Translations under genes and position numbers: made by a program
The notes under the pieces: model-generated
Databases searched by the model: none
Told to the model about the DNA's origin: nothing
The model's input: the letters and a program-made list of their open reading frames with translations, nothing else
Assembly: GCF_028752835.1 (NCBI RefSeq)
Contig: NZ_CP087952.1
Coordinates: forward strand, 3,780,501 to 3,844,500
DNA length: 64,000 nucleotides
Direction of reading: 5' to 3'
Source of the DNA: Desulfosarcina sp. BuS5
GTDB lineage: Bacteria; Desulfobacterota; Desulfobacteria; Desulfobacterales; BuS5
Shown here: positions 27,701 through 48,185 of the stretch, one piece after another
Numbering within the stretch: the first letter of the stretch is position 1
Layout: each line of letters begins with the position of its first letter

Positions 27701-27712
27701 GAAAGGAGAATT

Positions 27713-28570: not shown

Positions 28571-30631
28571 GTGGCACCGTTAAAACGGACGGGACGGCCG
28601 GGTTTTTATTGTTTCAGTATTATATTATTATTTGTTTTTGTATCTATTTTTGCCGGGTGCGCCTTGCAGTATGATCTGGATCATAAGAATAAAAGTGAAG
28701 CGCAAATTAAAAAAGTAAAAGATATCTATAAAACCGGAAAAAAATACCAAGTCAAGATTTCCAAAATTGATCCTGACAAGGCCGAAAAGCCGGCTGAATC
28801 AGGCGTTTCAAGAGAGATAAAATCTCCGGAGACAGATAAAGCTCGAAGAGTAATGGATATTCTTCCTCCTGTCGGCGGTCAAACTTCCGAATTAGACGCC
28901 GCTGATGAGAAAGGTAATAAGGATAAAGACAAAAAGGATAGCATTCCATTTTCGATCCAGCTTGAAGATGCTGATATAAGAGATTTCCTGGATATAATAA
29001 TTGGTGATTTTATAGGAGGATCATATATTCTTGAAGCAAAGCCGGCACAAAAAATAAGCATTAACATGCATGGAAATTTTACTAATAAAAATATGCTGGC
29101 CACCCTGAAAATTATACTTGATTCCATGAGCCTGACTCTTGCCAGGCACCATGGTGTCTATCATGTTTTGCCGAATAAAAAAGGGATTGCCATTGCGGAA
29201 AATATTCAGGTACTGATAGTCTCGCCAAAATATATCAAGGTTGTCAACCTTATTACAATTTTAAAGGATTTGAAGTCTTCCGGCGGGAAAATTGCCACTA
29301 TCCAGGGAAGCAATATACTTTTCATGCTTGATTATCCGGAAAACCTGGAACGAGCCCGGGCTTTGATCAATCTGTTTGATGCCCCGTTTTTCAAGGACAG
29401 GTATGTCCGTGTATATTCTCTAAAAACCGCTTTGGCGCAGGATGTTTCCGAAGAACTTAATTCGCTGGTCAAGGAATATAATGTTTTTTCAAACAAAGAA
29501 CCGGTCAATATAAGAATTATTCCGATTAAAAGGCTGAAAAAAATCGTTATACTGGCGACATCACTGGAATCTTTGGAATATCTGGATAGCTGGATCGGCA
29601 TACTGGATCAGGAGCGTGATGATGATGAAAAAATTTCCCTGTTTACCTACCGTCCAAAATACAGCAAAGTAAAGGATTTGGTGAATCTTCTTAATAAAAT
29701 ATTCCCGAAACTCAAAAACAACGAAGACGGCCTTGAAGCATTTGCTGATAATATCAGCAATATGCTTATCCTGAGGGCACAAAAAAAGATTTGGCTGGAA
29801 GCCAGAGAGATCATCGTTGATGTGGACAAACAGCCTGGCCAGGTTTATATTCAGGCGGTGCTTGCGGAGATCAAGCTTGATCAAAATATGCAGATGGGTT
29901 TTCAATGGTGGCTGCAGCATGAGTTTTTCGGCTATGATGATCTGGTTATCGGGAGCACGATGGGTGATCTGACCAATGAAGCTTTGAAAATTACTGTCTC
30001 TTCCGGGGAATTTTTCGGGTTATTGGCCGAGAGGGTCAATGATGGCGAGGCCAGTATTATTGCTACACCCCATATACTGGTTAAGCACGAGGAAGAAGCA
30101 TCTATAGAAATTAAACGCGAAGTCCCGGTTGTCAAGGATTTTTTAAAAACAGACCAGCAGGTCGATGGCACCACTTCAGACAAGCCCTCCATAGAGTACA
30201 AGGATGCCGGTATTATTCTTAAAGTCAAAACAAGGATTATCAACCGGTCGGATGTGGAAATTAATATCGAGCAGGAGGTGTCTGAACCAAGAACAACAAC
30301 AGTTGCCGGTATTGATACATATGAATTTAATACCAGAAAGATTATGTCTGACCTTATCCTTAAAGATCAGCAAACGATTCTGATAGGCGGACTTATTTCG
30401 GAGCTGCATGAAAATTCCGATACGCGGATTCCCATTCTAAGCGATATCCCGCTGCTGAAATATATGTTTACCAGTAAAAGTAAAAAAACCCAAAGGAGTG
30501 AACTGGTCCTTTTTTTGACTCCGGTTATTGTTAGTAACAGCAATGAATTACAGGCTTTCACAAACAACCTGACGGCTATATTGCAAAATAATATACAGGA
30601 TGAAATAGGAGATGTTGAAAAGGCTGATTAA
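28571..30631 (+). CDS. gspD: Type II secretion outer-membrane secretin GspD
   Basis: Forms the outer-membrane channel. A lipoprotein signal peptide ends at FAGC (Cys30), so this secretin is probably self-anchored and needs no separate pilotin (inference). N0-N3 domains are seen: FSIQLEDADIRDFLDIII near residue 125, then repeated RYVRVYSLKTALAQDV and SLFTYRPKYSKVKDL. The secretin core has VYIQAVLAEIKLDQNMQMG, VPVVKDF and the end motif LIGGLISELHENSDTRIPIL followed by LLKYMFTSKSKKTQRSELVL. Length of 686 residues is normal. The start is GTG with GGGGAG six bases before. Confidence 0.94.
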   Translation: MAPLKRTGRPGFYCFSIILLFVFVSIFAGCALQYDLDHKNKSEAQIKKVKDIYKTGKKYQVKISKIDPDKAEKPAESGVSREIKSPETDKARRVMDILPPVGGQTSELDAADEKGNKDKDKKDSIPFSIQLEDADIRDFLDIIIGDFIGGSYILEAKPAQKISINMHGNFTNKNMLATLKIILDSMSLTLARHHGVYHVLPNKKGIAIAENIQVLIVSPKYIKVVNLITILKDLKSSGGKIATIQGSNILFMLDYPENLERARALINLFDAPFFKDRYVRVYSLKTALAQDVSEELNSLVKEYNVFSNKEPVNIRIIPIKRLKKIVILATSLESLEYLDSWIGILDQERDDDEKISLFTYRPKYSKVKDLVNLLNKIFPKLKNNEDGLEAFADNISNMLILRAQKKIWLEAREIIVDVDKQPGQVYIQAVLAEIKLDQNMQMGFQWWLQHEFFGYDDLVIGSTMGDLTNEALKITVSSGEFFGLLAERVNDGEASIIATPHILVKHEEEASIEIKREVPVVKDFLKTDQQVDGTTSDKPSIEYKDAGIILKVKTRIINRSDVEINIEQEVSEPRTTTVAGIDTYEFNTRKIMSDLILKDQQTILIGGLISELHENSDTRIPILSDIPLLKYMFTSKSKKTQRSELVLFLTPVIVSNSNELQAFTNNLTAILQNNIQDEIGDVEKAD

Positions 30632-32160: not shown

Positions 32161-32162
32161 TA

Positions 32163-33888: not shown

Positions 33889-34833
33889 GTGGTAAAAAAA
33901 CAATTATTTTCCGTTATAATTTTTTTTCTGTTTTTACTGTTTTTATTATGCAGCGTCATACCGGTTTGTCCGGAACCTGCTGAAATAAAAACGGCCGTGC
34001 TTGTTTCACGGGATATACGTCCCTATTATGAAACAGTGGAAAGCTTGAATAATGAGCTGGTATCTATAGGCAATTTCAGGATCGAAGAATTTAATATTGG
34101 AAGATATAAACGGAAACAGCTTAATAAAATAGCTGACCATATAAAAAAGAAAAAATTTGATATCTGCATTGCAATAGGCCCGGAAGCCGCATTTTTTATC
34201 TGGAAGGATATACCTGGCCTTAATGCCCTCAAATGCTACACAATGGTACTTGCACCGGAAAAAATTATTGGAGAAAGCGCTGAAAACTGCGGCACCTCAC
34301 TTAATATTCCGCCTGAAATTCAGGTTGAACTGATATCCGGCTGTTTTCCTGATATCAACAGAATAGGGATCCTTTATGATCCGGCGCATAATACTGATTT
34401 TCTTAATAAAACCTTGCGTTATGCCTTAAAAACCGACCTCCGGATAGTTCCGCTCTCAATTTCATCAAAAAAAAATATCCCCTCCGTGCTGAAAAAAAAC
34501 TGGCCTGCCATTGATGCGCTGCTCTTTATACCTGATGAAACAGTAATTTCAGAAAGTATTATTCAGTATATCATAACAGAGTCCATCCGGAAAAATATTC
34601 CTGTAATAGGATACAACCGTTTTTTTTATGATAGAGGCGCCGCTCTTGCCTTTGTGATAGATTATCGGGAAACCGGCATTCAAACAGCCCGTCAGGCAGC
34701 CGCCCTGATCAATAGTCGGGAATGCGGAAAACAAGCGCCGCCGTTTAATGCCCTGTTAAATACCAGGATTGCCGGGCTGTTGAATTTAAAAACCGATTTA
34801 ACAGGATTTCCACAAATAAAGGCGGGCCCATGA
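33889..34833 (+). CDS. Periplasmic ABC-type substrate-binding-like protein
   Basis: A 314-residue protein with a signal peptide (FSVIIFFLFLLFLLCSVIPV), then the two-lobe fold of the ABC_sub_bind (PF04392-like) family: AVLVSRDIRPYYETVESLNN, CIAIGPEAA, IGILYDPAHN and an end region VIDYRETGIQTARQAA. No ABC permease or ATPase is near. It overlaps the sensor kinase by 4 bases (ATGA), so it is more likely the ligand-sensing part of that system than part of a transporter (inference). The start is a GTG at 33889. Ligand unknown. Confidence 0.83.
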   Translation: MVKKQLFSVIIFFLFLLFLLCSVIPVCPEPAEIKTAVLVSRDIRPYYETVESLNNELVSIGNFRIEEFNIGRYKRKQLNKIADHIKKKKFDICIAIGPEAAFFIWKDIPGLNALKCYTMVLAPEKIIGESAENCGTSLNIPPEIQVELISGCFPDINRIGILYDPAHNTDFLNKTLRYALKTDLRIVPLSISSKKNIPSVLKKNWPAIDALLFIPDETVISESIIQYIITESIRKNIPVIGYNRFFYDRGAALAFVIDYRETGIQTARQAAALINSRECGKQAPPFNALLNTRIAGLLNLKTDLTGFPQIKAGP

Positions 34834-36239
34834 AACAGCCGGGTATACATTTCAGAATTCTTGTCACGGCCTTTATCCTGATAAGCTCTGTGAGCTTTAT
34901 ACTGGGCATCACAGGCATAAATATAACCAGGGAATATATCACCAGGCGGTTTACCGATAATATATTTTTTATGGCCCGGCATCTGGCCACAAATGCCGAG
35001 GCCGGCATTATGGTAGGCGACAGGGCCTGGCTGAAACGGCTTGCCGCAAATCTTTTAACGGAAAAAAATGATATTGTGAAAATCAGTATCGCGGATTCTT
35101 CGGGCAATCTTCTGGTCGATATTACAAAAAATTATAAAGGCCCGGATGCTTTTGTGGAACTGCCGGTAATTCCCAGAAAGCCTGTGGATGCAAACAGCCT
35201 GTTTTCATCATCCGCGCTTAATGTTTTATCCGGTAAACTTGCGGAACAACCGGTAGGTAAAATATCGATCAGGTTCACCACCAGAAATATAGATAATCTT
35301 TTGCAACGCATTACGCAAAGGTTTTTCTGGCTTTCCCTGGCGCTTGCAAGCTGCGCCTGCGTTATATTTTTCTTTATTTCCAGATCCATAGTATCAGAGG
35401 TCAGCATGCTGTCCGATACTGCGAAGAAAGTTGCCCGGGGAAATTTTGATTTAAGGGCCGAGCCGGGCCGCCTGCCTGAAACCGGAAGGCTGGCCACGGC
35501 ATTCAACGCGATGCTGGATACGATCGAAAAGAGCCGGAAAGCGCTGAAAGCAACAAATAAAAAAATTATTCGCCAGAGTTCCATGGCTGAAATGGGCAAG
35601 TTTTCCATGATGATAGCCCATGAAGTTAAGAATCCCCTGGCAATTATTAAAGGTTCCATTGATGTGTTGAAAAAAAAACATGACCCGGCCACCAACAGCT
35701 TGATGATTGAATATATAGAAGATGAGGTAATGCGGCTCAACCGGCTGATAGAACATTTTCTTGTATTTGCCAGGCCGGCCAGACCGGTTTTCCGTGAAGT
35801 GGATGTTAACGGACTCCTTGTTGATATAGTCAGCAGGTTTAAAATTCAGGATAATAATGCTGAATTTTTTATAAAGGAAAATATTCCGCAAACAGAATGT
35901 AAAATCATGGCTGATCCTGATCTTCTGTCAAGAGCGCTGGGCAATATAATCAGAAATGCAATTGACGCCGGCAAAAATAAAGACGGCCCTGTTAATATAA
36001 GCGCCAGAACAATTCATGACTTCTGGATCGCCGAGGTTGCAGATCATGGCGACGGCATTCCGGAAGAAGAGATCAACAGGATTTTTGAACCGTTTTTTAC
36101 TACCAAGGCAAAGGGCAGCGGTCTGGGGCTTGCCTTTGCCTCCCAGGCGATCAAGGCGCATGGCGGAATTATAGCTGTAAAAAATATTCCTGAAGGCGGC
36201 GCCCTTTTCAGTGTTGAGTTGAAGATCGAAGAAGAATAA
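34830..36239 (+). CDS. Sensor histidine kinase
   Basis: Inner-membrane kinase of 469 residues. There is a membrane helix near 13-33, a periplasmic region of about 135 residues, a second helix near 168-188 and a HAMP-like region (SDTAKKVARGNFDLRAEPG). The H box is MMIAHEVKNPLAIIKGSIDV with the phospho-acceptor His. N, G1 and G2 boxes follow: ALGNIIRNAIDAG, ADHGDGIPEEEI and GSGLGLAFASQ. Together with the next gene it forms a two-component system of the NtrB/NtrC style. Confidence 0.94.
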   Translation: MKQPGIHFRILVTAFILISSVSFILGITGINITREYITRRFTDNIFFMARHLATNAEAGIMVGDRAWLKRLAANLLTEKNDIVKISIADSSGNLLVDITKNYKGPDAFVELPVIPRKPVDANSLFSSSALNVLSGKLAEQPVGKISIRFTTRNIDNLLQRITQRFFWLSLALASCACVIFFFISRSIVSEVSMLSDTAKKVARGNFDLRAEPGRLPETGRLATAFNAMLDTIEKSRKALKATNKKIIRQSSMAEMGKFSMMIAHEVKNPLAIIKGSIDVLKKKHDPATNSLMIEYIEDEVMRLNRLIEHFLVFARPARPVFREVDVNGLLVDIVSRFKIQDNNAEFFIKENIPQTECKIMADPDLLSRALGNIIRNAIDAGKNKDGPVNISARTIHDFWIAEVADHGDGIPEEEINRIFEPFFTTKAKGSGLGLAFASQAIKAHGGIIAVKNIPEGGALFSVELKIEEE

Positions 36240-36251: not shown

Positions 36252-37595
36252 ATGGTCAGGATTCTGGTAGTTGACGATGAAGAAAAGATGAGGCATCTGC
36301 TTGCCATAATGCTCGGCGCCGGTGGTTATGCCGTTGATCAGGCGCCGGATGGCGAAGCCGCCTTGAATATGGCGGCTTCCGGTAATTACGATATCATAAT
36401 AAGCGATATAAGGATGCCGAAAATGGATGGCATTACCCTGCTGAACAGATTAAAGGAGATGAATCTTCCATGCCCGGTAATTTTTATAACAGCTTTTGCT
36501 TCGGTAGATTCAGCCGTTGATGCAATGCGAAAAGGCGCGGCTGACTATATAACCAAACCTTTTGAAGAAAAACGGATTTTGCTGGCAGTGGAAAGGACAT
36601 TAAACATTACCAGGTTAATGTCCGAAAATCTGGCTTTAAAGCAGCATATCAATAAAATTACCGAAAAAGATGAAATTATCAGTGCATCCGAATCAATGTC
36701 GAAAATACTTAAGCTTGCCGGCAAGGTGGCGCAGCGTAATGCCACTGTTTTGATTACCGGTGAGTCGGGAGTCGGCAAAGAGGTTCTGGCAAAATTTATC
36801 CATAACAAAAGTCCCAGAAAAGATGAAAAATTTATACCTTTAAACTGCGCAGCCATATCTGCAGGCCTGATGGAATCCGAGCTCTTTGGACATGAAAAAG
36901 GAGCCTATACGGGAGCTGACCGGAGAACCCTGGGAAAATTTGAGTATTCGGATAAAGGAACACTTTTCCTGGATGAAATAGGAGATCTCCCTTTTGAGGC
37001 CCAGTCAAAACTTTTAAGGGCCCTCCAGGATAATAAAATTCAGCGAGTGGGCGGAAACAGCGAAATTAAGATCGATGTAAGAGTGATCTGCGCCACTAAC
37101 CAGAATCTTGAGCAACTTGTTGAGGACGGCAAATTTCGTGCGGATCTTTTTTTTAGAATAAATGTTTTTCCTGTTCATATTCCGACGCTCTCCGAACGGA
37201 AAAATGACATCATACCACTGGCCGAGTATTTTCTCCGCCGTTTTGATGAGTCTGGTGGAATAAGTTTGTCGGCAAGCTCCCAGGAACAGCTTTTAAATTA
37301 TGCCTGGCCCGGCAATGTCCGGGAGCTTGCCAATGCCATAGAGCGGGCTGTGATTATAGCGGATAATCCGGGGAAGATAACATCTGCGACTCTCTCCTTT
37401 TTGAATTCAAAAGCCCGCCTGGCTGACAAGAACAATAATAATATCCTGTTAAACGGAAAAACATCCCTGGACGAAATAGAAAAAAATCTGGTTCAGCAGG
37501 CGCTTGAAAAATCGAACAATAATCAAACCGCTGCCGCCAAACTGTTAGGTATAACCAGATCCAGATTCAGAGTCCTGTTGAAACAGCTTAACTGA
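36252..37595 (+). CDS. NtrC-family sigma-54-dependent response regulator
   Basis: Receiver domain at 1-120 with LVVDDEEKM and the phospho-acceptor Asp in IISDIRMPKMDG (Asp52 or so). The AAA+ domain has Walker A GESGVGKE, the sigma-54 contact loop as GAYTGA (Tyr in place of Phe in GAFTGA, an accepted variant), Walker B GTLFLDEIGDLP and arginine-finger region. A C-terminal Fis-type helix-turn-helix reads NNQTAAAKLLGITRSRFRVL. AGGAG precedes the ATG. It should activate sigma-54 promoters; two candidates lie in the window at 26056 and 40671, so it could link the sensor to secretion genes (inference). Confidence 0.95.
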   Translation: MVRILVVDDEEKMRHLLAIMLGAGGYAVDQAPDGEAALNMAASGNYDIIISDIRMPKMDGITLLNRLKEMNLPCPVIFITAFASVDSAVDAMRKGAADYITKPFEEKRILLAVERTLNITRLMSENLALKQHINKITEKDEIISASESMSKILKLAGKVAQRNATVLITGESGVGKEVLAKFIHNKSPRKDEKFIPLNCAAISAGLMESELFGHEKGAYTGADRRTLGKFEYSDKGTLFLDEIGDLPFEAQSKLLRALQDNKIQRVGGNSEIKIDVRVICATNQNLEQLVEDGKFRADLFFRINVFPVHIPTLSERKNDIIPLAEYFLRRFDESGGISLSASSQEQLLNYAWPGNVRELANAIERAVIIADNPGKITSATLSFLNSKARLADKNNNNILLNGKTSLDEIEKNLVQQALEKSNNNQTAAAKLLGITRSRFRVLLKQLN

Positions 37596-37603: not shown

Positions 37604-39679
37604 TTGACGAATAAATTACTCATTATATTAAAAGTCTTTGTCATATTATTCCTGCTTATGCCTGCGCCTGTATTTCCGGAAGGTGAAGCCGGGGAAAATC
37701 CTGGTGCGGAAAGCAGTCCCACCATGCTCATGTTTGTGGGAGAGGAACTCAATTTGCTTTCGATTGCATCCCGCCGGGAAGAGAGCGCTTTTAAGGCGCC
37801 TGCCATAGCCCGTGTAATAACCGGCGCTGAAATAAGGGAGCGGGGCATCACCACCCTTGCCCAGGCCCTGGAATATACACCCGGATTTTACATGGCCCAA
37901 AAGGAATGGGGATGTCAGCCTTATCTCAGGGGCCTCCCTGATTCGATTCTGTTCCTGTATGATACGGTGCCCATGGGTATGGAAATAAGCAAAACAGTGC
38001 ATCCGCTTGAACATGAGCTTTCTCTTTCGGCAATTAAACGGGTAGAGATCATCAGGGGCCCCGGTTCCGTTCTCTGGGGGCCGGATGCCTTTGCCGGAAT
38101 TGTCAACCTTGTTCCCCTGACAGGCCGTGATTTTACCGGAATGGAGAGCGGTCTGATCTATAACACACCCCATGACCAGAAAGGCTTTTACGTAAATTTG
38201 GGATATGATCAGGGCCTCTGGGACGTATTTCTGTCCGTCAGCGGCCGCAGGGGACGCGAGGGAAATAATGAAAGGTATAATATTACCCGCTTCTGGGATA
38301 ACGGAATAATTCCGGCTGATCCGGAGAATCGTTTTAAAAGTAAAGGTCTGAATAGTTCCAGGCTGTTTGAAATGGCCGGCAATTTTTCATTTGGTGATTT
38401 CGCGCGCCTTAGCGGCCGTGTGAGCGATTTTAAAAGGCCGGCCGTTTTCAAAAAACCGGATTCAGACATCAAGTGGAGGGAAAACCGCGGCTGCCCCCAG
38501 CATTTTGTAAAGCTTGAACTTAAACAAAGCCTGAACAGACTGTCGGCATTAAGGTTCACCGGATATTTAAGGAATGCTGAAATCGAAAACAGTATAATCG
38601 ATTATTCCGTTACCCAGAAAGAGAGAGCCTTTTATTCCGAAATTCTCTATGACCGGTCTTTTTTTTCCCGCCGCGGGCTTTTTACCGGGGGCGTTTCGTA
38701 CAGAGAAAGGAATATAAGGGATGCGCTTGTATGGGAAAGCTATATGCCCGATTTTCTTGGACCGGAAAACAAGTTTTTTTTACCCCTGGCGCTGGAAAAG
38801 AATTATGATTCGCGTCTTAAATCAATCTTCGGACAATCCTCTTTTAAAATCGGCGATCTGGACCTTATGCTCGGCGCGCGGTTAGACATCCATGATAAAT
38901 ATCCCGATCGGACAAGCTATAATGCGGCCGTAACCTGGGCATTTCACCGCGATAGCATGTTCAAACTTATATATGGAACAGCCTACCGGACCCCCTTTGC
39001 CAGGCAGTTGACAAACAATTCCGAATTTGGTTCGGAGCTAGATCTTGAAAAAATCAGAAACATCGATCTGCAACTGGCCTGGAAGCCTTCAAACCGCGCC
39101 GGCGTCACTCTCTCCTGTTTCATCAGCAGGATTGAAGATCATGTCAAAGAGGATTGCTACGCAGGGCTTTCCCTGCCCAACAGCCAGAAGATATCAGGGC
39201 TTGAAATTGAAGGGAATATAAAACCTCTGCCTACGGTTGAAATTTCGGCAAATGCCTCCTTTATACATGCCGGCGGCAAAGACGAGACTTATTATTACAA
39301 CGATTATATTATTATAAACCATGATAATACAATAACCAGGCACTATACCGATATCAAATATCCTTTTGACAAGGGCCCGGGCACGTTTTTTAATATCAGC
39401 GGCATCTGGAAACCTGTTGAATCAGTCATTTTTTCAACCAGGATAGGCTATTTCTCGTCCCGACGCATGATTCAGCCGCGCACCAATAAAATTTCGACCA
39501 TCCATGGAAGCACGATTGTTGATGCCGGCGTAACTTTTAAAAATTTTATCCTGAACGATCTGGATCTGGTTGTCTCCTGCCGGAATCTTTTTGACCGGGA
39601 TTACAAAACCCCCGGCACATACGGTTCCATCAACGGCGCACCCTTTGAAACAGAATTTATTTTAAGGAAAAGATGGTAA
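37604..39679 (+). CDS. TonB-dependent outer-membrane receptor
   Basis: Receptor of 691 residues with a signal peptide (LKVFVILFLLMPAPVFPEG) and a plug domain: SAFKAPAIARVITGAEIRER, LAQALEYTPGFYMAQ, QPYLRGLPDSILFLYD and VEIIRGPGSVLWGPDAFAGI. The rest is a 22-strand-type barrel that ends in an aromatic residue (LRKRW). The start is TTG with GAGG six bases before, directly after the regulator gene. The transported ligand (siderophore, cobalamin, other metal chelate or glycan) cannot be read from sequence, and no riboswitch is seen. As last gene of the sensor operon it may supply the periplasm with the ligand that is sensed (inference). Confidence 0.93.
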   Translation: MTNKLLIILKVFVILFLLMPAPVFPEGEAGENPGAESSPTMLMFVGEELNLLSIASRREESAFKAPAIARVITGAEIRERGITTLAQALEYTPGFYMAQKEWGCQPYLRGLPDSILFLYDTVPMGMEISKTVHPLEHELSLSAIKRVEIIRGPGSVLWGPDAFAGIVNLVPLTGRDFTGMESGLIYNTPHDQKGFYVNLGYDQGLWDVFLSVSGRRGREGNNERYNITRFWDNGIIPADPENRFKSKGLNSSRLFEMAGNFSFGDFARLSGRVSDFKRPAVFKKPDSDIKWRENRGCPQHFVKLELKQSLNRLSALRFTGYLRNAEIENSIIDYSVTQKERAFYSEILYDRSFFSRRGLFTGGVSYRERNIRDALVWESYMPDFLGPENKFFLPLALEKNYDSRLKSIFGQSSFKIGDLDLMLGARLDIHDKYPDRTSYNAAVTWAFHRDSMFKLIYGTAYRTPFARQLTNNSEFGSELDLEKIRNIDLQLAWKPSNRAGVTLSCFISRIEDHVKEDCYAGLSLPNSQKISGLEIEGNIKPLPTVEISANASFIHAGGKDETYYYNDYIIINHDNTITRHYTDIKYPFDKGPGTFFNISGIWKPVESVIFSTRIGYFSSRRMIQPRTNKISTIHGSTIVDAGVTFKNFILNDLDLVVSCRNLFDRDYKTPGTYGSINGAPFETEFILRKRW

Positions 39680-39707
39680 TGATTCCCGGGGCGTTGCTCC
39701 CGGATTA

Positions 39708-40205: not shown

Positions 40206-40316
40206 AATTAAAAAATAGTTTCTTTTTTGTTGAAAATCAAGCTTAAAAAATAAATTTTCTCATGTGGGGTTCCCACGCAGGAGCATGGGACCAGGCAAAA
40301 ACCAGCATCTAAACAG

Positions 40317-40340
40317 TGTAAACTAAATTTGAAGGATGCC
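40317..40340 (-). repeat. Inverted end copy of the 12147 MITE
   Basis: Reading the minus strand gives GGCATCCTTCAAATTTAGTT and then TA, identical over 22 bases to the left end of the element at 12147. The rest of that element is missing here, so this is a solo end or a remnant. Confidence 0.75.
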
Positions 40341-40358
40341 TAAATTTCAAACTTTTTT

Positions 40359-40407
40359 TCGTTCCCGGGCTCTGCCTGGGAATGCGTATCGCAAGGCTCC
40401 GCCTTGC
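40359..40407. repeat. Double-hairpin palindromic repeat
   Basis: Two hairpins follow each other: TTCCCGGG-CTCTG-CCTGGGAA (one mismatch) and GCAAGGC-TCC-GCCTTGC (perfect). The form, a GTTCCC...GGGAAC unit and then a GGCTCCGCC unit, is that of a widespread bacterial palindromic repeat. A related GTTCCCA...TGGGAC unit lies 90 bases upstream. Confidence 0.7.
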
Positions 40408-40670
40408 ATCTGCAGCACCCTGCAAACGCTTACAGCTCAAAGGTTTACATGTAATTGACATTTGATACGGCAATACAGCCCGTGAACGGTTACAAATCAG
40501 GTAATTATCTAACGGTCTATAATTACCCGGCCCTGTAAAGGTGATATTTAACCAACGCTGGTCATATACAACCACGATTTTCTCTCCCGCCCGCAGGACC
40601 ATCCTTTTTGCTTCTCTCTAATTATCTGATTTCAAAAGCTTTTTTAAAAACAGCTCTTAAACCTGTTCAA

Positions 40671-40686
40671 TGGCACATTGTTTGCT
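40671..40686 (+). promoter_or_regulatory. Sigma-54 promoter of the CAP-domain gene
   Basis: TGGCACATTGTTTGCT matches the consensus TGGCAC-N5-TTGC exactly, with GG and GC ten bases apart. The transcript would start near 40697, about 35 bases before the GTG at 40733, with AAAGGAG at 40719-40725 in between. It is the clearest promoter in the window. Confidence 0.8.
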
Positions 40687-40732
40687 TATTTTTAATAAAA
40701 TTTAACGCAAAAAAATTTAAAGGAGCATTCCG

Positions 40733-42178
40733 GTGCGGCATTCAATTTCAATATACGGTATTTCAGTTTTGTTATTTTTATCAAGCTTGGGTTGTACTGC
40801 TGCTGCGGCATCAAATACTGCTGTTCCCGATTCCATTGAACTTTACCTGATACAACTTATAAATAATGCCCGCGTAAATCCGCGGGCCGCAGCAAGCTCC
40901 ATCGGCCTTGACCCTGAAAGTATTCTTGAATCGGATCCCGGGATCAGGGATATCCTTGAAAACGGCCTGCCGCCTCTTGATTATAACGGCAACATCCAGC
41001 TTGCGGCCAGGGAATGCGGGCGCAAGCTGCTGGCAGACAATTTGGTTAACAAAGGAGAATGCAGGCTTGAAAGCAGTCTCCGGGCGCGTGGCTACATACC
41101 GGCCTGCTCAAAAGAGATTACCGGCTCAATAATGTTTTTAAATTTTATCAGTAAGGAAGAGGCTGCCAATCTTGTTTTCAGGGATATTTTAAAAAAAGAG
41201 CTGAACGCAACGGCGGTTGAAGATTTAAAAGTATTAAGCCCGAATGTCAGTGAAATCGGGCTTAGCTTCCGGTCCGGGAATGTCCGGGCTGCCGGAGGCC
41301 ATTATATGGCTTATCTGCTCACGGCTGATTTGGCGGCTAATATCTGTTCGAAAACCGGGTTTCAGCTCCATGCCCTGATTAATCAGGCCCGCTCCTTTCC
41401 TTTGGAAACAGCGCAGGCCTTATCCATTAATCCGGAAGATATTCCTGAAGATTTGAAAGAGAGTTTTAAAAACGGTTTGCTGCCTTATAATTTGAATGAA
41501 ATGCTGGTTGCGGCTGCTGCTGATAAGGTAGATGAGCTTGCCCGGGATATTTACGATTCCCAAAATCCTTCCGGGTCATCAGACCCTTTGGACCCCGTTG
41601 TGGTTAAAGCCGGGCCTGAAGAGCGCCTGGCCGGTTTTGGTTATGAGGCCGGTTTTGCGGATCAGTTCACGGCTTTTCTGATTTCCGGCGGAACTGTGGC
41701 GCCTGGGTCTTCTTATGTTGCCGATCTCTTTTTCAAGGCTCAACTAAGGAAGGAACTCAGTCCTGATAATGAAAATCCTGTTATTTTTTCCGATATTTTA
41801 AATGAAAGCGGGATCCGCTTTTCATCAAGCGATGCAGGTAATCCTTTTAGTATGCAATTTCTGCTTGCGGCCGATTTCGGTTATGCAAAAAAAACGGCAG
41901 GCAGTTTTGTCTGCGGTATGGTTTTTGAGGATTTCAACAGAAACAGGCTTTACGATATTAATGAAGGGCTTGGCGGAATTCAGGTCAGGATATACGGAAA
42001 TCATAAAAATTTGCTTTTTTTCACAAATTCCGCCGGCGGTTTTGAAATACCGCTTGAGTCCGGGAAATATATTGTTACCGCATATCTTCCGGATGGGGCG
42101 GAAGAAATACTTGTTGATATAATTGATAATAATGCGGCTGTCAGGTTTTTGGTTGAACTTGAAAATGACCGGATTTAA
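40733..42178 (+). CDS. Secreted CAP (SCP-like) domain protein with C-terminal beta domain
   Basis: 481 residues. A signal peptide (GISVLLFLSSLGCTAAAA) is followed by a CAP-like domain (LYLIQLINNARVNPRAAASS, LDYNGNIQLAARECGRKL, GGHYMAYLLTAD). A second, diverged CAP-like copy begins at FQLHALINQARSFPLETAQA. The last 90 residues (CGMVFEDFNRNRLYDINEGLGG, given here as FEDFNRNRLYDINEG, then GGFEIPLESGKY) form an SdrD-B/carboxypeptidase-regulatory-like beta domain that often binds calcium. Such proteins act outside the cell; the activity of bacterial CAP proteins is mostly unknown. GTG start with AAAGGAG seven bases before. It has its own sigma-54 promoter, and the giant gene follows. Confidence 0.86.
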   Translation: MRHSISIYGISVLLFLSSLGCTAAAASNTAVPDSIELYLIQLINNARVNPRAAASSIGLDPESILESDPGIRDILENGLPPLDYNGNIQLAARECGRKLLADNLVNKGECRLESSLRARGYIPACSKEITGSIMFLNFISKEEAANLVFRDILKKELNATAVEDLKVLSPNVSEIGLSFRSGNVRAAGGHYMAYLLTADLAANICSKTGFQLHALINQARSFPLETAQALSINPEDIPEDLKESFKNGLLPYNLNEMLVAAAADKVDELARDIYDSQNPSGSSDPLDPVVVKAGPEERLAGFGYEAGFADQFTAFLISGGTVAPGSSYVADLFFKAQLRKELSPDNENPVIFSDILNESGIRFSSSDAGNPFSMQFLLAADFGYAKKTAGSFVCGMVFEDFNRNRLYDINEGLGGIQVRIYGNHKNLLFFTNSAGGFEIPLESGKYIVTAYLPDGAEEILVDIIDNNAAVRFLVELENDRI

Positions 42179-42199
42179 AATCAGAAGATATAATTATGA

Positions 42200-42213
42200 G
42201 TAACCGTTCACGG
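42200..42213 (-). repeat. Third copy of the CCGTGAACGGTTAC repeat
   Basis: GTAACCGTTCACGG is the exact inverse of the phrase at 22308-22321 and nearly all of that at 40479-40493. Here it lies between the CAP gene and the giant gene, followed by GTTTACAGTTTACGG, a looser echo. Confidence 0.65.
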
Positions 42214-42265
42214 TTTACAGTTTACGGTTTTTTAAAAAAGGCAAAATTAATAAATCAGTACGTTT

Positions 42266-42277
42266 AAAGGAGGTGAT
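42266..42277 (+). promoter_or_regulatory. Full anti-Shine-Dalgarno match in a leader
   Basis: AAAGGAGGTGAT is complementary to the last 12 bases of typical 16S rRNA. It is 72 bases before the ATG of the giant gene, which has its own AGGAG at 42339-42343. The only ORF next to it would be eight codons (MPSGVEKI), starting too close for normal use. It might be a ribosome standby site or chance. Confidence 0.35.
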
Positions 42278-42349
42278 GCCGTCAGGAGTAGAAAAAATTT
42301 AACCTTTTTTTACAACGCATGTTTTAATAATTAATTTTAGGAGAAATTT

Positions 42350-45300
42350 ATGAATTATGGTAAATATAGAGGATGGCGACCATTATCCATCCTTATTATG
42401 ATTTTTGCATTTGTGGCTCTTGTAACAGGCAGCGCTATGGCAGCGGCCGTCCTTACAGGAAACACAAATGCAAATCCAAAGATAATAAAAGATCAGGATT
42501 ATCAAATAGCTTTGCCTGATTTTGATATTGATGACGATGATGCTCTTATGCTCTATTATACTACAGGCTGGGTGTTGGACAGCACAAATTCCGGTACCAT
42601 GAGGGACCCTGATGGCACAAGTGATACGGTTTACCAGCCGCCGGATACAGAGGATTCAGGGGCATATTTTCAGATTCTTGTAAATGAAAATACTACCGCC
42701 ACATTCGGCGATGCAGCAGATGGGTTCATGCTGTTAAGAGGCGTTCCTGATGAAGACGGCGCCGGTTTGAATGCATTGGATGGGGCGATTCCCGATATCC
42801 TTGTAGGCACTCTGCTTGCAACGGGAAATACTGCTAGTGATGAACTATATGTCATGTCAAGTTCAAAATTGGCTGGCCCTGGTTCTGTAACAGTAACCTC
42901 TGCAGCTATACCCGTTGATGCAGATCTTGTTAACCCGTTCTTGCTGGTGTCTGGTGATGATGCATTAGCTGCTGGTGATCAAGATGATGGCGCAACCGCC
43001 TATGATTTAGGCGCTGATACAGCAGAAAATGATAATGGAGAAGTCGAAAGTAATATCAGCATTGGCCTTACGAGTGATATGGCTGATCCGACCCTGGTAG
43101 ATGCTGAAATTACCCTTGCGGATATTGTGTACGGCGGCAAGACAACATTCATATGCGCACTGGATCCGGATCCGGAAAAAAACATTATCAACGGTATTGC
43201 TACAGCCGAATTTGAACTGAATGTTTCTCTGCCCGAAATTGCTCCGGATGCATGGAAATCTGATTTTGGAAGCAAACCAGATCTGGATGACCTGAACACA
43301 AGTCTTGTATTTACAAACGGTGATTTTATTAATCCTTTTACTTTTATCTTCAAGGTCAATACACATACCGATAATTGTGAAGTAGGTTCAAATGACTACG
43401 ATTTTACCTTCCTCAATGACGGTACGGTACTGATTACCGATAGCGATGATCTGAGTCTCAAAGCCACCTACTCTATCTTCTTTGATGATGACGCACTTAC
43501 AAATATCAGCGCTGCTACCAGCGATGAACGTTCGGTTACTGTTACTGACGGCATAGGACCTTATGTTGTGGAGTCTGAAGCGGATTCCGATATTCCGGCT
43601 CTCTGGACCGTTAATGAAGATGGAGATACAAATGTTAATGCTATTTACGTTGCATTCAGCGAACCTTTGAATGCATCTGTTGCTACCAGTCTTACAGCAT
43701 CTGATTTTGTGATCTGGGTTGATGCTGATGATAATGATACTGTAAATGATGGCGAAATTTTTACAAGCGCTGTTACTTCAGTTCAGGTTGTTGCTATTAA
43801 CGACGTGGACGGCGACGGTGAGCCGGATAACGACGCGTGGGATTTAAACGGTGATGGTGAAGCTGATACCGGCGCGGATTATGGTATCAAGATTATCCTT
43901 GATGATACATCCATTGGTACGGGTGCTGAACCTTACATCCGTGTGGCAATAGCTGCTCCTGTTTCTGATATCAAGGATGCCGGCGGCGCAAACTATGGTA
44001 TGTATTGTGGTAAAATACTTGGTGGAGCAGGTGATTACTTCCAGTTATTTAACCATTTCACATTTGATGATGCCGACACACCTAACGACGGTGAATATGC
44101 TAATGAGGCTGCAAGTTCTCAATTATCAGTCGCCGAAAGAAGACTTAGCGTTGTTAAGTCTCCCCAGGCTCAAGACAAAGCCGCGCCTGGAATTAAAACA
44201 GCAGAATACGATGCCGAAACAGGTGTCATGACGGTTACCTTTAATGAAGACTGGGCTGATGATGGTTTCGACCTCTCAGGCTACAGTGCCCAGCAGGCTT
44301 TTGTAATTCGCAATGCCGCAGGCAAAAAAGTAACCTTTGTTGGTGAGTTTGATGCTGTGGATGGTTTACAGGATGGCGGAGTTGCCGAGTTTACCATTAA
44401 TTCAATCAGCGAGTCTGTCTCATTAGACTTTACGATTCAGGCCTATACCTATCCCATGAACGATAAAGTATTAATGGATGGTAATGGAAATTATGTTTCT
44501 GAATCGAATCAAGTTTCAATCTCAACGGAAGCTGCCACAAGCGCTGCAACTCCAACCTGTGATGCTGATCTTGGAGCAGGTATTTCCCTGATTCAAAATG
44601 ACTCAACCCTGTTTTATGATCAGGCCAAGGTAATTTTCGGCAGCTCTCCTGAAGACGCTGATCCTGTTACCACGCTTGCCCTGGTTAAGGATACGGATGA
44701 TGACGGAACATTCGATGCAACCGTAACAGATACTACCGAGATTAAGAATGCTCTTATTGAAATGTTTTTAATCTATGACGGCGGTGATGGAACCTGGAAC
44801 AGGGCAGCCACAGCTGCTGCAATGACGAATAATTATGTTACCCTGACCCTGGAAAATCCAAGTTCCATCAGTACTAATGTAATAATTGAATATCATCAGT
44901 ATACGGATGATTCTGATGTTGTCTACGCTTTATCCAACGCAGCTGATCCCTATGGCACAGTTAGTGCCGGTAGCTGCATGTTTGCCGGTCCAAGCGCCGG
45001 TGACTGGGGGGCATGCCTGATCGACAGCGACCTTGACGGATTGGTTGATTCTGTTGAACTTGTTTATGCCGGCGAGCTTATAGAGGCCGCAGACGGCACA
45101 GTTGATACCAGTGGTTTTTCGTTAACCCTGCAATCAGATGGAAGCGCGGTTCCGGTTGCAGATGAGGCCGTTATTTCCTATGACGAAGATAGTGATGAGA
45201 CTACTCTGATCCTGGCGCTTGACCCGGACGGGGTAATCACTGACTGGTATCCAACAGATGATCCTGATGAAAAACAGGATCTTTATACAGACGCTAAAGA

Positions 45301-48064
45301 TATGTTTTACATCCTTTATTCAGGCAGCACTTTGACAAGATCCGACGGAACAAAATTGCCTGAACTGGTCATAGACGACCAGGCAGATTGTTCTGCGCCG
45401 GTTCCTGTAGAAGCAGGCAATACCTGCGATGGTGATAATAATCTCCTGATAATAATGAGTGAGGATTTGGTTGACGCTGATCCCAGCTTACTTAACGGTC
45501 AGGAAGCAGGTAAATATTTTGTCTTTCTGGACGCGGATGGTAATTTCATCAATTCCGAAGGCTGGACACTTGAAACAAGTGTTTCTTCAGAACAGGATGA
45601 GATTGGCGTAAATTGTGACGGCGACGGCGACGGCTACGGCGGCGGCGGCGGGGTTGCGTATATTTACTTAAGCCAGGCCAACCGGCCGGAGGACGGAGGA
45701 GACATTAAAGATGAAGCTGGAAATCTTGAAGAAGATCCTCTTTACAACAACCAGCTTGATATTGGCACAAAGATTGAAGTAGCACAGTGCGGAGATGCTC
45801 TTCCGCAAATAGAATCTGCCAAAACCTTTGCCTGCTGTGAAGATACGGATGGTGACGGAAGCGATGATGTATGTTATTATAAATACATCTGGGTAAAACT
45901 CACCAAGGATGTTGTCCAGGCAGACCCAGGCATTAATATGCAAACTCCGGAAGGTATTTGCATGGCGTTTGAGGTAACCATCGGTAACACTGACTCCGGT
46001 GCTCTTAACCCGTATCAGAAGCTTACGGTAAATTCTGTTACCCTTGTAAATGGAAATGAGATTTTAATTGCCGTGCCTCATGTAGCAGATGAAGGTGGAC
46101 TTGATGCCAACACCAATGGCCTCGGTTTCCGCCCGATTTCTATTACCTATCTGGATAACAGTGAAAAAGATGGGTATGACTATCTGATGGCTGACAATGG
46201 TGATGCTCTTGCAGGCGCAACTGTTGATGTTGAATGGAATGGGCTTGACAAAGGATCTCTTGAAGAAGACCGAACCGCAGATGTAGCTACCGTTGAAGTC
46301 TGGGGTAATCTGTCCAATTTCGATTTCCAGGGAGATCCTAACGGGGGAGCCCAGATTACGGCTTATGAGGCTTACCGTTATCTTGATGTTTCCCAGGATG
46401 AATACTACAATCTGGAAATAAGCTTTGACTACGGACCGCTTTCAAAAAATACCGGCGGCTCTTTCGGTCTTTATACAAAAGGCCAGACTCCGCAGTGTCA
46501 CCAGAATGGTACATATATCACCCTGGTATACTCGGATGGCGATGGTGTATCTTCGTGTGAGGGCGGCACAGATCCTAACTATGGGGATATTGATCCGCTG
46601 ACGGGTGCTGATGATATTGAGGACTTCGTAGAAGCCGGTTACTGTTATCTGCATACCGACATTGGATACTCTGGAGGTGATGCTGATGATGATGATAGCA
46701 GCTACGGAAGCAGCCAGGGCATAGTGCCAAGTGATGATATTTATAATATTAATTACGGTTTCAACTTTGGCCTCTCTCTTGATCCTGAACCGCAGGGCGA
46801 GCACGATTCTGTTTTTTATGTAAAGCTTACTGTGAAGGAAAATACAAGAGACGGATCAGCGACCATAACTGCCTCAGGCAGTTACGGCATCAAGGGTTCC
46901 GGTTCCAGGACAGTTGTAACTACCCTGGATGATGACTGGAAATTCTGGGATGGTGATCTGATTGCTAGCGCTACACCTCGTCCGGTTGGAAAAGCCTTTG
47001 TAGACTTTGGCGATACGGCCGGTCAGTACAAGATACTAGCCGTTGACGAGCTTGGAAAAGCTCTTCTTGTCAACGACGAAGCTCTTACGGATAACCAGGA
47101 TGACGAAGCTCTTCTTGCCAAAGGGTCTACTCTCCAGGAATTGAAAGAAGCGATTCAATCCAGAATCATCGAAAAGAAAGTTGTGCTGGTACTCACAGAG
47201 CAGTATACACAGGAATGCTCCGGTACTGCTTCAGGCATCTGGGAGACAGACTATCCTGAAGCTACGGCTTCAAGGCACATCCTTCTTAACGGTGTAACTG
47301 ATGATGTGGATATAACTTATTACTTCTGGACCAAGGACGGTACATGCAGGGCTGATTTTGACATGACCAAAATCTTTGACTATGATTTGGTCGATGGCTG
47401 GAATCTCCTGCCTGTTGTTGTAGATAAGGTTTATTATAAGAGTAAAGCGCCAAGCATCAACAAAGTATACCCCGGCGTTGACAAGACACCCAGGGCAACT
47501 GCCAATATTCAGGTTGCAAGCGTGTCTAGTGCTCTTATCGGTATTGATTCTGAAAGTGGTGTCCCGTTTATAGCCGGGGCTGGAGCCAAGCTTTTCGGCC
47601 TGGACGAAAACGGTGTTGTTTACGCTGCTTCATCTGATATATCATACCTTAGAGCAGGTTACGCATATGCGCTTAACAGCTCAAGCCTGACAAACAATAA
47701 TGACGGCAGTGAAGTAGGCGGTGAAGAAGGTCACCCGCAGCTCTACATTTTCGGGTATGTATTACCTGATAATGGTATGAGCGGCGGCGCTAAACTTACT
47801 GCAAATGTTCTTGATGTGACTGATTCGTCTGATGCCAGAAGCAAAACCAATCTCGGATGGAATCTCATTGCGGACGTTGCCGACATTAATCTGCCTTCCG
47901 GCGAACTTGACTACGTAATCACCTTCACAGCAGGTGAATTCGAATCATGGATTAGTTCTGCCGAAACAGATTTAAACGATTTCAGCGCTATAACGAATTT
48001 ATATACCGCTGATGATGATAAACCCAGGGGGAAAGGTTACTTTACCCATACATTTGAAGATTAA
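42350..48064 (+). CDS. Giant acidic secreted protein with calcium-loop motifs, 1904 residues
   Basis: Signal peptide MNYGKYRGWRPLSILIMIFA with cleavage near GSAMA|AAV. The mature protein is very rich in Asp, Glu, Gly and Ser/Thr and nearly free of Arg and Lys in long stretches. It appears as a chain of beta domains; short calcium loops are DVDGDGEPDNDAWDLNGDGE (near 485), DSDLDGLVDS (near 893), DGDGDGYGGGGG (about 1092-1103) and DTDGDGSDD (near 1166). A GWNLLP and GWNLIAD pair marks the C-terminal 300 residues. No anchor, S-layer homology or autotransporter domain is seen. A surface or S-layer-like protein or a T2SS substrate is likely; function is not known. AGGAG stands before the ATG, and a strong terminator follows the stop. 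Confidence 0.85.
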   Translation: MNYGKYRGWRPLSILIMIFAFVALVTGSAMAAAVLTGNTNANPKIIKDQDYQIALPDFDIDDDDALMLYYTTGWVLDSTNSGTMRDPDGTSDTVYQPPDTEDSGAYFQILVNENTTATFGDAADGFMLLRGVPDEDGAGLNALDGAIPDILVGTLLATGNTASDELYVMSSSKLAGPGSVTVTSAAIPVDADLVNPFLLVSGDDALAAGDQDDGATAYDLGADTAENDNGEVESNISIGLTSDMADPTLVDAEITLADIVYGGKTTFICALDPDPEKNIINGIATAEFELNVSLPEIAPDAWKSDFGSKPDLDDLNTSLVFTNGDFINPFTFIFKVNTHTDNCEVGSNDYDFTFLNDGTVLITDSDDLSLKATYSIFFDDDALTNISAATSDERSVTVTDGIGPYVVESEADSDIPALWTVNEDGDTNVNAIYVAFSEPLNASVATSLTASDFVIWVDADDNDTVNDGEIFTSAVTSVQVVAINDVDGDGEPDNDAWDLNGDGEADTGADYGIKIILDDTSIGTGAEPYIRVAIAAPVSDIKDAGGANYGMYCGKILGGAGDYFQLFNHFTFDDADTPNDGEYANEAASSQLSVAERRLSVVKSPQAQDKAAPGIKTAEYDAETGVMTVTFNEDWADDGFDLSGYSAQQAFVIRNAAGKKVTFVGEFDAVDGLQDGGVAEFTINSISESVSLDFTIQAYTYPMNDKVLMDGNGNYVSESNQVSISTEAATSAATPTCDADLGAGISLIQNDSTLFYDQAKVIFGSSPEDADPVTTLALVKDTDDDGTFDATVTDTTEIKNALIEMFLIYDGGDGTWNRAATAAAMTNNYVTLTLENPSSISTNVIIEYHQYTDDSDVVYALSNAADPYGTVSAGSCMFAGPSAGDWGACLIDSDLDGLVDSVELVYAGELIEAADGTVDTSGFSLTLQSDGSAVPVADEAVISYDEDSDETTLILALDPDGVITDWYPTDDPDEKQDLYTDAKDMFYILYSGSTLTRSDGTKLPELVIDDQADCSAPVPVEAGNTCDGDNNLLIIMSEDLVDADPSLLNGQEAGKYFVFLDADGNFINSEGWTLETSVSSEQDEIGVNCDGDGDGYGGGGGVAYIYLSQANRPEDGGDIKDEAGNLEEDPLYNNQLDIGTKIEVAQCGDALPQIESAKTFACCEDTDGDGSDDVCYYKYIWVKLTKDVVQADPGINMQTPEGICMAFEVTIGNTDSGALNPYQKLTVNSVTLVNGNEILIAVPHVADEGGLDANTNGLGFRPISITYLDNSEKDGYDYLMADNGDALAGATVDVEWNGLDKGSLEEDRTADVATVEVWGNLSNFDFQGDPNGGAQITAYEAYRYLDVSQDEYYNLEISFDYGPLSKNTGGSFGLYTKGQTPQCHQNGTYITLVYSDGDGVSSCEGGTDPNYGDIDPLTGADDIEDFVEAGYCYLHTDIGYSGGDADDDDSSYGSSQGIVPSDDIYNINYGFNFGLSLDPEPQGEHDSVFYVKLTVKENTRDGSATITASGSYGIKGSGSRTVVTTLDDDWKFWDGDLIASATPRPVGKAFVDFGDTAGQYKILAVDELGKALLVNDEALTDNQDDEALLAKGSTLQELKEAIQSRIIEKKVVLVLTEQYTQECSGTASGIWETDYPEATASRHILLNGVTDDVDITYYFWTKDGTCRADFDMTKIFDYDLVDGWNLLPVVVDKVYYKSKAPSINKVYPGVDKTPRATANIQVASVSSALIGIDSESGVPFIAGAGAKLFGLDENGVVYAASSDISYLRAGYAYALNSSSLTNNNDGSEVGGEEGHPQLYIFGYVLPDNGMSGGAKLTANVLDVTDSSDARSKTNLGWNLIADVADINLPSGELDYVITFTAGEFESWISSAETDLNDFSAITNLYTADDDKPRGKGYFTHTFED

Positions 48065-48128
48065 ATAATCTTTAACCATTAACCGGCCTTTGGAAATATT
48101 ATTCCAGGGGCCGCAATTACAATTCAAT

Positions 48129-48165
48129 AAAAGCCCCGGCCGGTTTTCGACCGGGGCTTTTTTAT
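48129..48165 (+). terminator. Intrinsic terminator after the giant secreted-protein gene
   Basis: AAAAGCCCCGG pairs with CCGGGGCTTTT around an 11-base loop and runs into TTTTTTTATATTT. It is a textbook GC-rich hairpin with a T tract, 65 bases after the stop codon. Confidence 0.95.
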
Positions 48166-48185
48166 ATTTGTCAAAGTTTTAAGTG

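Follow-up and report, generated by a model that had tools for sequence, protein, structure and literature searches.

The 64-kb stretch of DNA analysed here (the window) carries a gene block that we read, with a probability of about 0.7, as a local signal-to-secretion module, in which a sensor-regulator-receptor cassette would act through a palindrome and a sigma-54 site on a secreted output protein of CAP fold. On sequence comparison, the NtrC-type regulator of the cassette and the CAP gene very likely form a local regulon. The initial annotation had placed sensor, regulator and CAP product side by side, an arrangement that is conserved across many families together with the sigma-54 site and the palindrome. 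It had also put the block forward as a candidate undescribed system, a proposal that still stands, as no published account of the block was found in the open-access full-text literature.

The conserved cassette and the CAP protein

The cassette comprises four genes on the forward strand. These encode an ABC_sub_bind protein that is likely the periplasmic ligand receptor for the kinase (33889-34833), a membrane histidine kinase with sCache_4-like, HAMP, HisKA and HATPase domains (34830-36239), the NtrC-type response regulator (36252-37595) and a TonB-dependent outer-membrane receptor (37604-39679), in which Pfam at E up to 0.1 finds the plug and the barrel and no N-terminal STN domain. The regulator combines a receiver, a sigma-54 AAA+ domain and a Fis-type HTH, the domain set of the NtrC family. 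Its sigma-54 contact loop reads GAYTGA, while GAFTGA is present in 47 of 63 aligned regulators and GSFTGA in 11; the tyrosine variant of this loop would probably be functional. Conservation was assessed in 67 further genomes of the order that carry the TonB receptor, excluding from each denominator the loci cut by a contig end. Upstream of the receptor gene, the regulator is found in 62/62 testable genomes, the kinase in 58/59 and the binding protein in 56/57, and in 18 genomes of other orders the respective figures are 17/18, 18/18 and 18/18, related genomes in these counts not being independent events. Judged by this gene order, binding protein, kinase, regulator and TonB receptor are one cassette that is kept as a unit.

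The CAP gene (40733-42178, +) starts with GTG, with an AAGGAG ribosome site ahead of it, and encodes a predicted secreted protein of 481 aa to which neither Pfam nor NCBIfam gives a family name. Pfam detects no CAP domain in the window copy at E up to 0.1, and the protein of one relative reaches 20.9 bits against the Pfam cut-off of 21.1. In an AlphaFold2 model built with 24 relatives (pLDDT 88), the first domain shows the CAP fold and the tail is CNA-B/SdrD-like, the middle part being a putative second CAP domain on the strength of motifs repeated in the alignment. The CAP fold is matched by VIA-align with Z 14.6 (rmsd 2.5, 126 aligned), and a profile match to 4ifa is obtained at E 7.5e-4. 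In its first domain, the window copy carries Cys where most relatives carry the His of the HT.DM motif; cavity residues underlie CAP activity, are variable within the superfamily and are dispensable for the fold. Among the other genomes of the order, a recognisable CAP gene follows the TonB receptor gene in 34 of 49 testable loci and is absent from the other 15.

The sigma-54 promoter and its predicted enhancer

The exact sigma-54 consensus claimed ahead of the CAP gene was confirmed by a pattern scan and by comparison of relatives. The sequence TGGCACATTGTTTGCT at 40671-40686 (+) agrees with TGGCAC-N5-TTGCW (-24/-12) and is the sole site with zero mismatches in the window; as the pattern with up to two mismatches shows no enrichment there (29 found versus 31.2 expected), only the exact match counts. 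In the whole genome (4.18 Mb), the exact consensus occurs 12 times, versus twice for the reversed pattern. When the best site in each TonB-CAP interval is counted, using weights of our own, 34 of 42 loci (the window's own included) present a sigma-54 site of at least 17.4 out of 19.2, and the same 42 intervals yield 2 with the reversed matrix and 1 on the other strand. Of these 34 sites, 29 are no more than 115 nt away from the point where CAP is estimated to start, those of G350, G362 and G054 lie 250, 321 and 1447 nt from it, and for G205 and G038 the start estimate is wrong. Among five CAP loci of other orders, scanned with a matrix that additionally permitted T at the fourth position, G652, G612 and G742 show a site of at least 18.2 after the TonB receptor gene; the stretch ahead of CAP in G592 and G709 falls outside the scanned interval. 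On these sequence comparisons, the site at 40671 is real and is predicted to act as a sigma-54 promoter of the enhancer type.

A search for activator sites at this promoter, suggested in the initial annotation, returned two tandem palindromes about 113-133 nt upstream, where the conserved motif predicts an enhancer for an AAA+ activator. The distal copy, AGGTGATATTTAACCA (40539-40554, +), has a de novo motif score of 11.9 bits and is where the linked NtrC-type regulator is predicted to bind; the proximal copy, TGGTCATATACAACCA (40559-40574, +), lies 20 bp from it and, with 19.9 bits, is the best in the window. The palindrome TGGtTAnATnTAaCCA was recovered de novo from each of two halves of the regions, and 13/21 and 15/21 held-out regions exceeded the motif threshold, where shuffles within 20-nt blocks would give 0.42 each. 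At 14 bits, it is found within 400 nt upstream of 33 of 44 CAP ORFs, and elsewhere 19 sites occur in 1.44 Mb, 12 of them directly after the TonB receptor gene; neighbouring sites are spaced by exactly 20 bp in 28 of 32 pairs. The 18 genomes of other orders were outside motif training, and there the palindrome reaches at least 14 bits before CAP in four of five loci (13.8 in the fifth) and in none of the 13 CAP-less genomes, three CAP-less loci having sites of 13.1-13.6 bits within cassette genes. Since the 42 regions of the order served as the training set for the motif used in the window, CAP-ORF and own-genome scans, independent evidence comes only from the held-out halves and the other orders. 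The detection of CAP in the latter is itself not independent, because its profile was built from L199-L244 and L219 and L230 apparently correspond to the G742 and G612 stretches.

That the palindrome belongs instead to another NtrC-family activator, the linked regulator having other targets, appears quite improbable. Linkage is not proof of binding, and, in the portion of a survey available to us, Desulfobacteria exceed all other classes covered in their number of sigma-54 activators, with as many as 69 in one genome (PMC12316311). The palindrome, however, tracks the cassette and CAP across orders, and within the own genome the CAP site is by far the best (19.9 bits, the next one 13.6) of 42 sigma-54-like places examined, which comprise the 12 exact sites and the first 30 of 107 loose ones and include 16 copies of one repeated 16-mer. 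It is also nearly absent where the recognition segment of the linked regulator differs. Of the 44 CAP ORFs, 11 have no palindrome at 14 bits: nine come from a group in which the regulator carries another segment (RARFRTL), one has a pair just past 400 nt and one scores 13.8. Within 3 kb after the TonB receptor gene, a 15-bit palindrome is present in 1/13 RARFRTL loci, but the loci with other readable segments have it in no more than 29/42. Two places considered as further targets in the own genome were judged weak, namely L036, a PilT-like gene with an 11.6-bit site, and L009, whose 13.6-bit site is a 16-mer repeated in the genome.

The secretion system and the proposed second cargo

The type II secretion system (T2SS) of the window includes GspD, E, F, G, K and further pseudopilins. 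A divergent arm (22334-25990, -) holds gspF, gspG, an M-like gene, gspK and a pseudopilin gene, a sigma-54-like site, TGGCATATTTATTGCT (26056-26071, +), precedes the second arm, and the secretin GspD and the ATPase GspE are encoded at 28571-30631 and 32163-33782 (both +). This GspD is an outlier when set beside those encoded close to the cassette in relatives and for that reason failed as a marker of the block, with matches in 0/290 other genomes at E 1e-60. A relaxed search revealed GspDs near the CAP genes of G054 and G038, which led to the recognition of the conserved block. Of 47 other genomes with sufficient contig, 36 have a T2SS secretin gene no more than 12 kb upstream; none was found within this distance in the remaining 11, so that export by the T2SS is proposed from proximity only. 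A T2SS is usually linked to the cassette, but in the own genome it looks to have been replaced by an unrelated one. Conservation of the whole 22-48 kb block, a check suggested in the initial annotation, holds for the cassette and, in most loci, for CAP, with GspD nearby in the proportion just given, and fails for the 1904-aa protein that follows CAP, which is missing from all 388 other genomes of the order.

The original version of the proposal, in which T2SS, CAP and the 1904-aa protein form one regulon of the linked two-component system, is now unlikely. It draws on physical linkage, on the frequent proximity of GspD to the cassette and on the sigma-54-like site before one T2SS arm, but the best palindrome within about 1 kb of 26056 scores 2.8 bits, versus 19.9 at CAP. 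No palindrome of at least 15 bits was found at the T2SS genes of G054 and G038, where the stretch spans gspE to gspD, and in G012 a 17.6-bit site lies inside gspD. Enhancers are able to act from afar, and a palindrome missing near the T2SS promoter is not absolute evidence. The initial annotation itself took different activators at the two promoters as evidence against a single regulon, and by that measure the missing palindrome at 26056 indicates that the CAP and T2SS promoters are probably controlled by different activators.

The 1904-aa protein (42350-48064, +) has an apparent signal peptide and is lineage-specific, with relatives in 0/57 other genomes in one search and in 0/388 other genomes of the order in another, and no sequence match in Pfam, NCBIfam or PDB (the latter at E up to 1). 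In relatives, the same slot is occupied by secreted proteins that all belong to one unrelated family; among the 12 loci with both ORFs called, 10 have a distance of 138-300 nt between CAP and this protein. The 1904-aa protein shows no similarity to the family (hmmsearch E 0.58). As first described, no terminator is visible between CAP and this ORF: no terminator-like hairpin is listed in the 171-nt gap, and an attenuator or terminator there was rejected, the RNA fold being no better than shuffles (z 0.08). A terminator-like stem is located downstream of the 1904-aa gene, at 48140-48154. Co-transcription of both genes is possible, and so is an arrangement, compatible with the module reading and falling somewhat short of an even chance, in which the 1904-aa gene forms a separate unit, such as an inserted gene for a constitutively made surface protein, with only CAP under sigma-54 control. 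The gap, which holds a very short ORF whose ribosome site is strong, the absence of the protein from other genomes and a sigma-70-like match (10 of 12) at 42165-42194 favour such a separate unit, although matches of this kind are common in the region (26 in 39600-48500 versus 17.3, sd 3.2, in shuffles) and a single one says little. The lack of a listed hairpin in the gap and the secreted proteins that relatives carry in the same slot argue against it.

The proposed circuit and related systems

According to the module reading, a ligand would enter the periplasm via the TonB receptor and be read there by the binding protein and the kinase, after which the phosphorylated regulator would bind the palindromes, loop onto the sigma-54 RNA polymerase at 40671 and turn on CAP. 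The CAP protein would exit the cell by Sec and then by the neighbouring T2SS, which would stay nearby without being switched by a CAP-type enhancer. The gene after CAP would encode a cargo peculiar to the lineage, exposed at the surface or released; in the window this is the 1904-aa protein, which may in part be made from the CAP transcript. Points against this reading are the CAP ORFs that have no palindrome, the loci where CAP or a nearby GspD is missing, the GAYTGA loop of the window regulator, the Cys in place of His in the window CAP copy and the 13.1-13.6-bit sites in CAP-less loci. More tentatively, and with the odds slightly against it, the block may represent, within Desulfobacterota, a class of outside-to-outside circuit that has not been described, running from TonB receptor and binding protein through kinase and NtrC-type regulator to a double-CAP protein exported via an adjacent T2SS, in which the machine and the second cargo are exchanged and the sensor, the enhancer code and CAP are kept.

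In TonB cell-surface signalling, FecA and FpvA function with an anti-sigma and an ECF sigma factor. The present system would likewise couple an outer-membrane TonB receptor to transcription, but its receptor shows no STN domain in the Pfam search and neighbours a histidine kinase and a sigma-54 regulator. The PEP-CTERM/exosortase regulators PrsK/PrsR are also a histidine kinase and a sigma-54 regulator, located near surface polysaccharide genes. With the model for PrsK (NCBIfam TIGR02916), however, the window kinase reaches 97.8 bits where the cut-off is 300, a score that fits generic similarity among kinases. As far as the available part of the Desulfovibrio vulgaris regulome study goes (PMC4641369), NtrC-family two-component systems with local sigma-54 targets share the receiver/AAA+/Fis-HTH regulator, an enhancer at least about 100 nt upstream and neighbouring targets. 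They differ in that the cassette described here also contains genes for a periplasmic binding protein and a TonB receptor and that its probable target is a CAP-fold protein; TonB, type II secretion and Desulfobacter were looked for in the text of that study and gave no match.

The outputs of most sigma-54 activators of Desulfobacteria are, we infer, unknown. Here, one activator family can be listed along with its probable DNA site, its promoter and its conserved target across dozens of species, which makes ligand, binding and secretion directly testable, including in the cultured Desulfatitalea alkaliphila (L238), whose contig carries the block. Dozens of sulfate-reducer-type bacteria that are only distantly related have retained, as neighbours, a gene set that apparently senses an external signal and turns on a secreted protein via a sigma-54 promoter. 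As for the output itself, it resembles the bacterial CAP/SCP proteins BB0689 of Borrelia (4d53) and SCP of B. anthracis (4ifa) in its CAP fold (Z 14.6 and 14.5), and differs from them in its putative tandem of two CAP domains followed by the CNA-B/SdrD-like domain and in that Pfam misses the window copy. The top Foldseek rows for the CAP model apparently reflect mostly the CNA-B-like tail, with CAP/PR-1 proteins appearing lower.

Conservation of the sensor cassette

The initial annotation placed a sensor kinase, an NtrC-type regulator and a CAP gene side by side as one block, an arrangement that is borne out in related genomes. On the plus strand of the window, an ABC_sub_bind protein (33889..34833), the kinase (34830..36239), the regulator (36252..37595) and a TonB receptor (37604..39679) form a sensor cassette upstream of CAP. 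The receptor is the best marker of the block and is present in 68 of the 389 genomes of the order, the own genome included (E up to 1e-40). The surroundings of all 67 other receptor-bearing genomes were examined, and in the loci with enough contig the receptor is preceded by the regulator (62/62), the kinase (58/59) and the ABC_sub_bind protein (56/57), has a GspD gene at most 12 kb upstream (36/47) and is followed by a CAP protein (34/49). The 46 named receptor loci carry names of Desulfobacterales or Desulfobacteraceae, unspecified Deltaproteobacteria and a few Syntrophales-type names, with Desulfatitalea alkaliphila and Desulfocicer vacuolatum as the cultured species. In a sample of 395 genomes of the phylum, the receptor (E up to 1e-80) was found in 20, namely the own genome, one of the same order and 18 of other orders, and in these 18 it lies beside the binding protein (18/18), the kinase (18/18) and the regulator (17/18). 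The cassette also occurs in other orders with no recognised CAP, as in genome G739, where the neighbours at the locus (L287) include SpoU-, DHH- and ThiC-type genes.

Comparison of these genomes shows that the cassette, CAP, its promoter and a palindrome in front of it belong together. From the perspective of mechanism, a ligand would enter via the TonB receptor and be read by the binding protein and the kinase; CAP would then be switched on by looping, and its product may be exported by the type II secretion system (T2SS). The window regulator consists of a receiver, a sigma-54 AAA+ domain with the loop GAYTGA, and a Fis HTH. Every component of the block is of a known kind, and searches of an open-access full-text library listed no account of the sensor-CAP block. 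According to a survey (PMC12316311), Desulfobacteria have the highest numbers of sigma-54 activators and are among the classes with secretion-related sigma-54 targets, T2SS enrichment being reported mainly for Myxococcia; the available part of a paper on the D. vulgaris sigma-54 regulome (PMC4641369) makes no mention of TonB or type II secretion.

The CAP gene, its promoter and the palindrome

CAP (40733..42178, plus strand) starts with GTG at 40733, behind a good ribosome site and downstream of a sigma-54 site. Its 481-aa product has no match in Pfam or NCBIfam. An AlphaFold2 model built with 24 relatives from named records (mean pLDDT 87.8) resembles CAP/SCP proteins in residues 31-204 (4d53_A, Z 14.6, rmsd 2.5, 126 aligned; 4ifa, Z 14.5) and SdrD/UafA-type domains in residues about 390-477 (Z about 11), and a profile search concurs (SdrD 2.4e-13; 4ifa 7.5e-4). 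According to the alignment with relatives, CAP motifs recur in the middle part of the protein, and in the window protein the first domain no longer has the HT.DM His. Between TonB and CAP lies a minus-strand gene (39708-40205) for a 165-aa protein with an apparent signal peptide and a membrane segment, without a match in Pfam at E up to 0.01.

The exact-consensus sigma-54 promoter described in front of CAP stands: TGGCACATTGTTTGCT, at 40671-40686 (+), is the sole zero-mismatch match in the 64-kb window. The own genome has 12 matches to the exact pattern versus 2 to its reversed form, and 107 to a looser pattern versus 5, dozens of the places listed being one identical, probably repeat-borne 16-mer. 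Among the 42 genomes (own included) with a CAP match after TonB, 34 hold, in the TonB-CAP stretch, a sigma-54 site that scores 17.4 or more of 19.2, as against 2 when the matrix is reversed and 1 when the opposite strand is read, and 29 of the 34 sites lie at most 115 nt from the estimated CAP start. In the own genome (C1), an identical 16-mer, TGGCAGACTCGTTGCA, that fits the loose pattern is present in dozens of copies and is probably part of a family of repeats; TGGCCATATACTGCCA also recurs.

The 330 nt upstream of the sigma-54 site were searched de novo for palindromic motifs; two randomly chosen halves of the set, searched independently, gave the same motif, TGGtTAnATnTAaCCA, the predicted enhancer site of the linked regulator. 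Each half's motif was found above threshold in the other half, in 13/21 and 15/21 sequences, with 0.42 expected to pass. At 14 bits or more, the palindrome lies within 400 nt upstream of 33 of the 44 CAP ORFs (all 86 loci). Outside those stretches, 1.44 Mb of sequence hold only 19 sites, of which 12 lie just after TonB, either in loci where clustering called no CAP ORF (10) or just beyond 400 nt from the CAP ORF (2). Adjacent copies are exactly 20 bp apart in 28 of 32 pairs, as they are in the window, where a distal copy at 40539 scores 11.9 bits and the proximal one at 40559 scores 19.9. In 21 genomes with both elements, mean pairwise identity is 26-32% in the flanks and 68-70% in the sites, a contrast inflated by the picking of sites by score. 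Among 42 sigma-54-like places examined in the own genome, CAP is far ahead with 19.9, followed by 13.6 (in a repeated 16-mer), 11.6, and then 4.2 or less.

The 18 genomes of other orders, none of which was used for the motif, provide an independent check. Five have CAP, and in four of these a palindrome of at least 16 bits (best 17.8 to 22.4) directly precedes it; in the fifth, G709, which differs in gene order by having CAP upstream of the cassette, the palindrome scores 13.8 bits. Since none of the 13 CAP-less genomes has a site of at least 14 bits (three have sites of 13.1-13.6 bits inside cassette genes), the palindrome would seem to go with the CAP output and not with the cassette itself. 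Presence of the palindrome (15 bits, at most 3 kb after TonB) also varies with the recognition segment of the regulator: it is found in 1/13 loci with the segment RARFRTL and in 29/42 loci where another segment could be read, for the most part R[AS]KFRVL. The RARFRTL group makes up 9 of the 11 CAP ORFs that lack a palindrome of 14 bits, which is a correlation across related genomes rather than proof of binding. In genome G045 a second tandem pair far downstream (TonB +17079/+17099) is followed after about 1.2 kb by a sigma-54-like site fronting a very large ORF, possibly marking a second target.

The T2SS beside the cassette

The initial annotation raised the possibility that the CAP and T2SS promoters belong to one regulon. 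The T2SS arm site at 26056, TGGCATATTTATTGCT, has one mismatch to the strict sigma-54 pattern, and the palindrome reaches at most 2.8 bits within about 1 kb of it, against 19.9 at CAP. Median identities of the window proteins to the others versus among the others are 56.0 vs 57.7% for the regulator, 39.9 vs 37.8% for the receptor, 42.7 vs 40.1% for the kinase and 36.2 vs 34.0% for the binding protein, so that the four cassette genes look like ordinary orthologues. In a comparison of 39 proteins over 500 aa, the window GspD (28571..30631) has a median of 23.6% and 164 bits to the others, among which the median is 41.2% and 512 bits. Because this GspD is far from the cassette GspDs of relatives while the sensor genes fit, the T2SS (22334-33782) is most simply read as an unrelated system that replaced the usual one in place, beside a conserved sensor. 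Fast divergence could also have made the window GspD an outlier; the gene order differs as well, with two divergent arms and a dockerin gene first. The product of the latter, first in the plus arm (26127-27215), carries a dockerin type I domain (Pfam 8.9e-8) and ends in a tail where SPF-like motifs are repeated; it has no tblastn match at the block in relatives.

The variable slot after CAP

As initially described, CAP is followed by an ORF of 1904 aa (42350..48064, plus strand) whose product appears to have a signal peptide. Its proposed place in a conserved unit did not hold: the protein has no relative in the 388 other genomes of the order, and no sequence match in PDB. Members of a different secreted family, mostly 375-642 aa long, are found a short distance behind CAP in 13 other genomes; both ORFs were called in 12 loci, 10 of which have a gap of 138-300 nt. 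The structure model of this family (L224:13990-15117 and relatives) is only fair (pLDDT 73) and predicts a domain at the C-terminus that resembles TM1070 (Z 12.8), the Anabaena sensory rhodopsin transducer fold also being similar (Z about 10). In other relatives, a subtilase gene, a T1SS/RTX set or polysaccharide genes of the Wzm/Wzt type are among those that follow CAP; the slot is variable. At 42260-42303, between CAP and the 1904-aa gene, the start of an 8-codon ORF coincides in part with an exceptionally strong ribosome site, AAAGGAGGTGATG. A DDE transposase gene (48361-50220) directly follows the predicted terminator of the 1904-aa gene.

Further downstream, beside a Wzt_C ABC transporter, a gene at 59797-62277 encodes a protein with DUF4214 and a C-terminal methyltransferase whose middle part is long, repetitive and coiled-coil-like, a layout reminiscent of a chain-length ruler of O-polysaccharide. 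DUF4214-methyltransferase and Wzm/Wzt genes are located after CAP in genomes G018 and G045.
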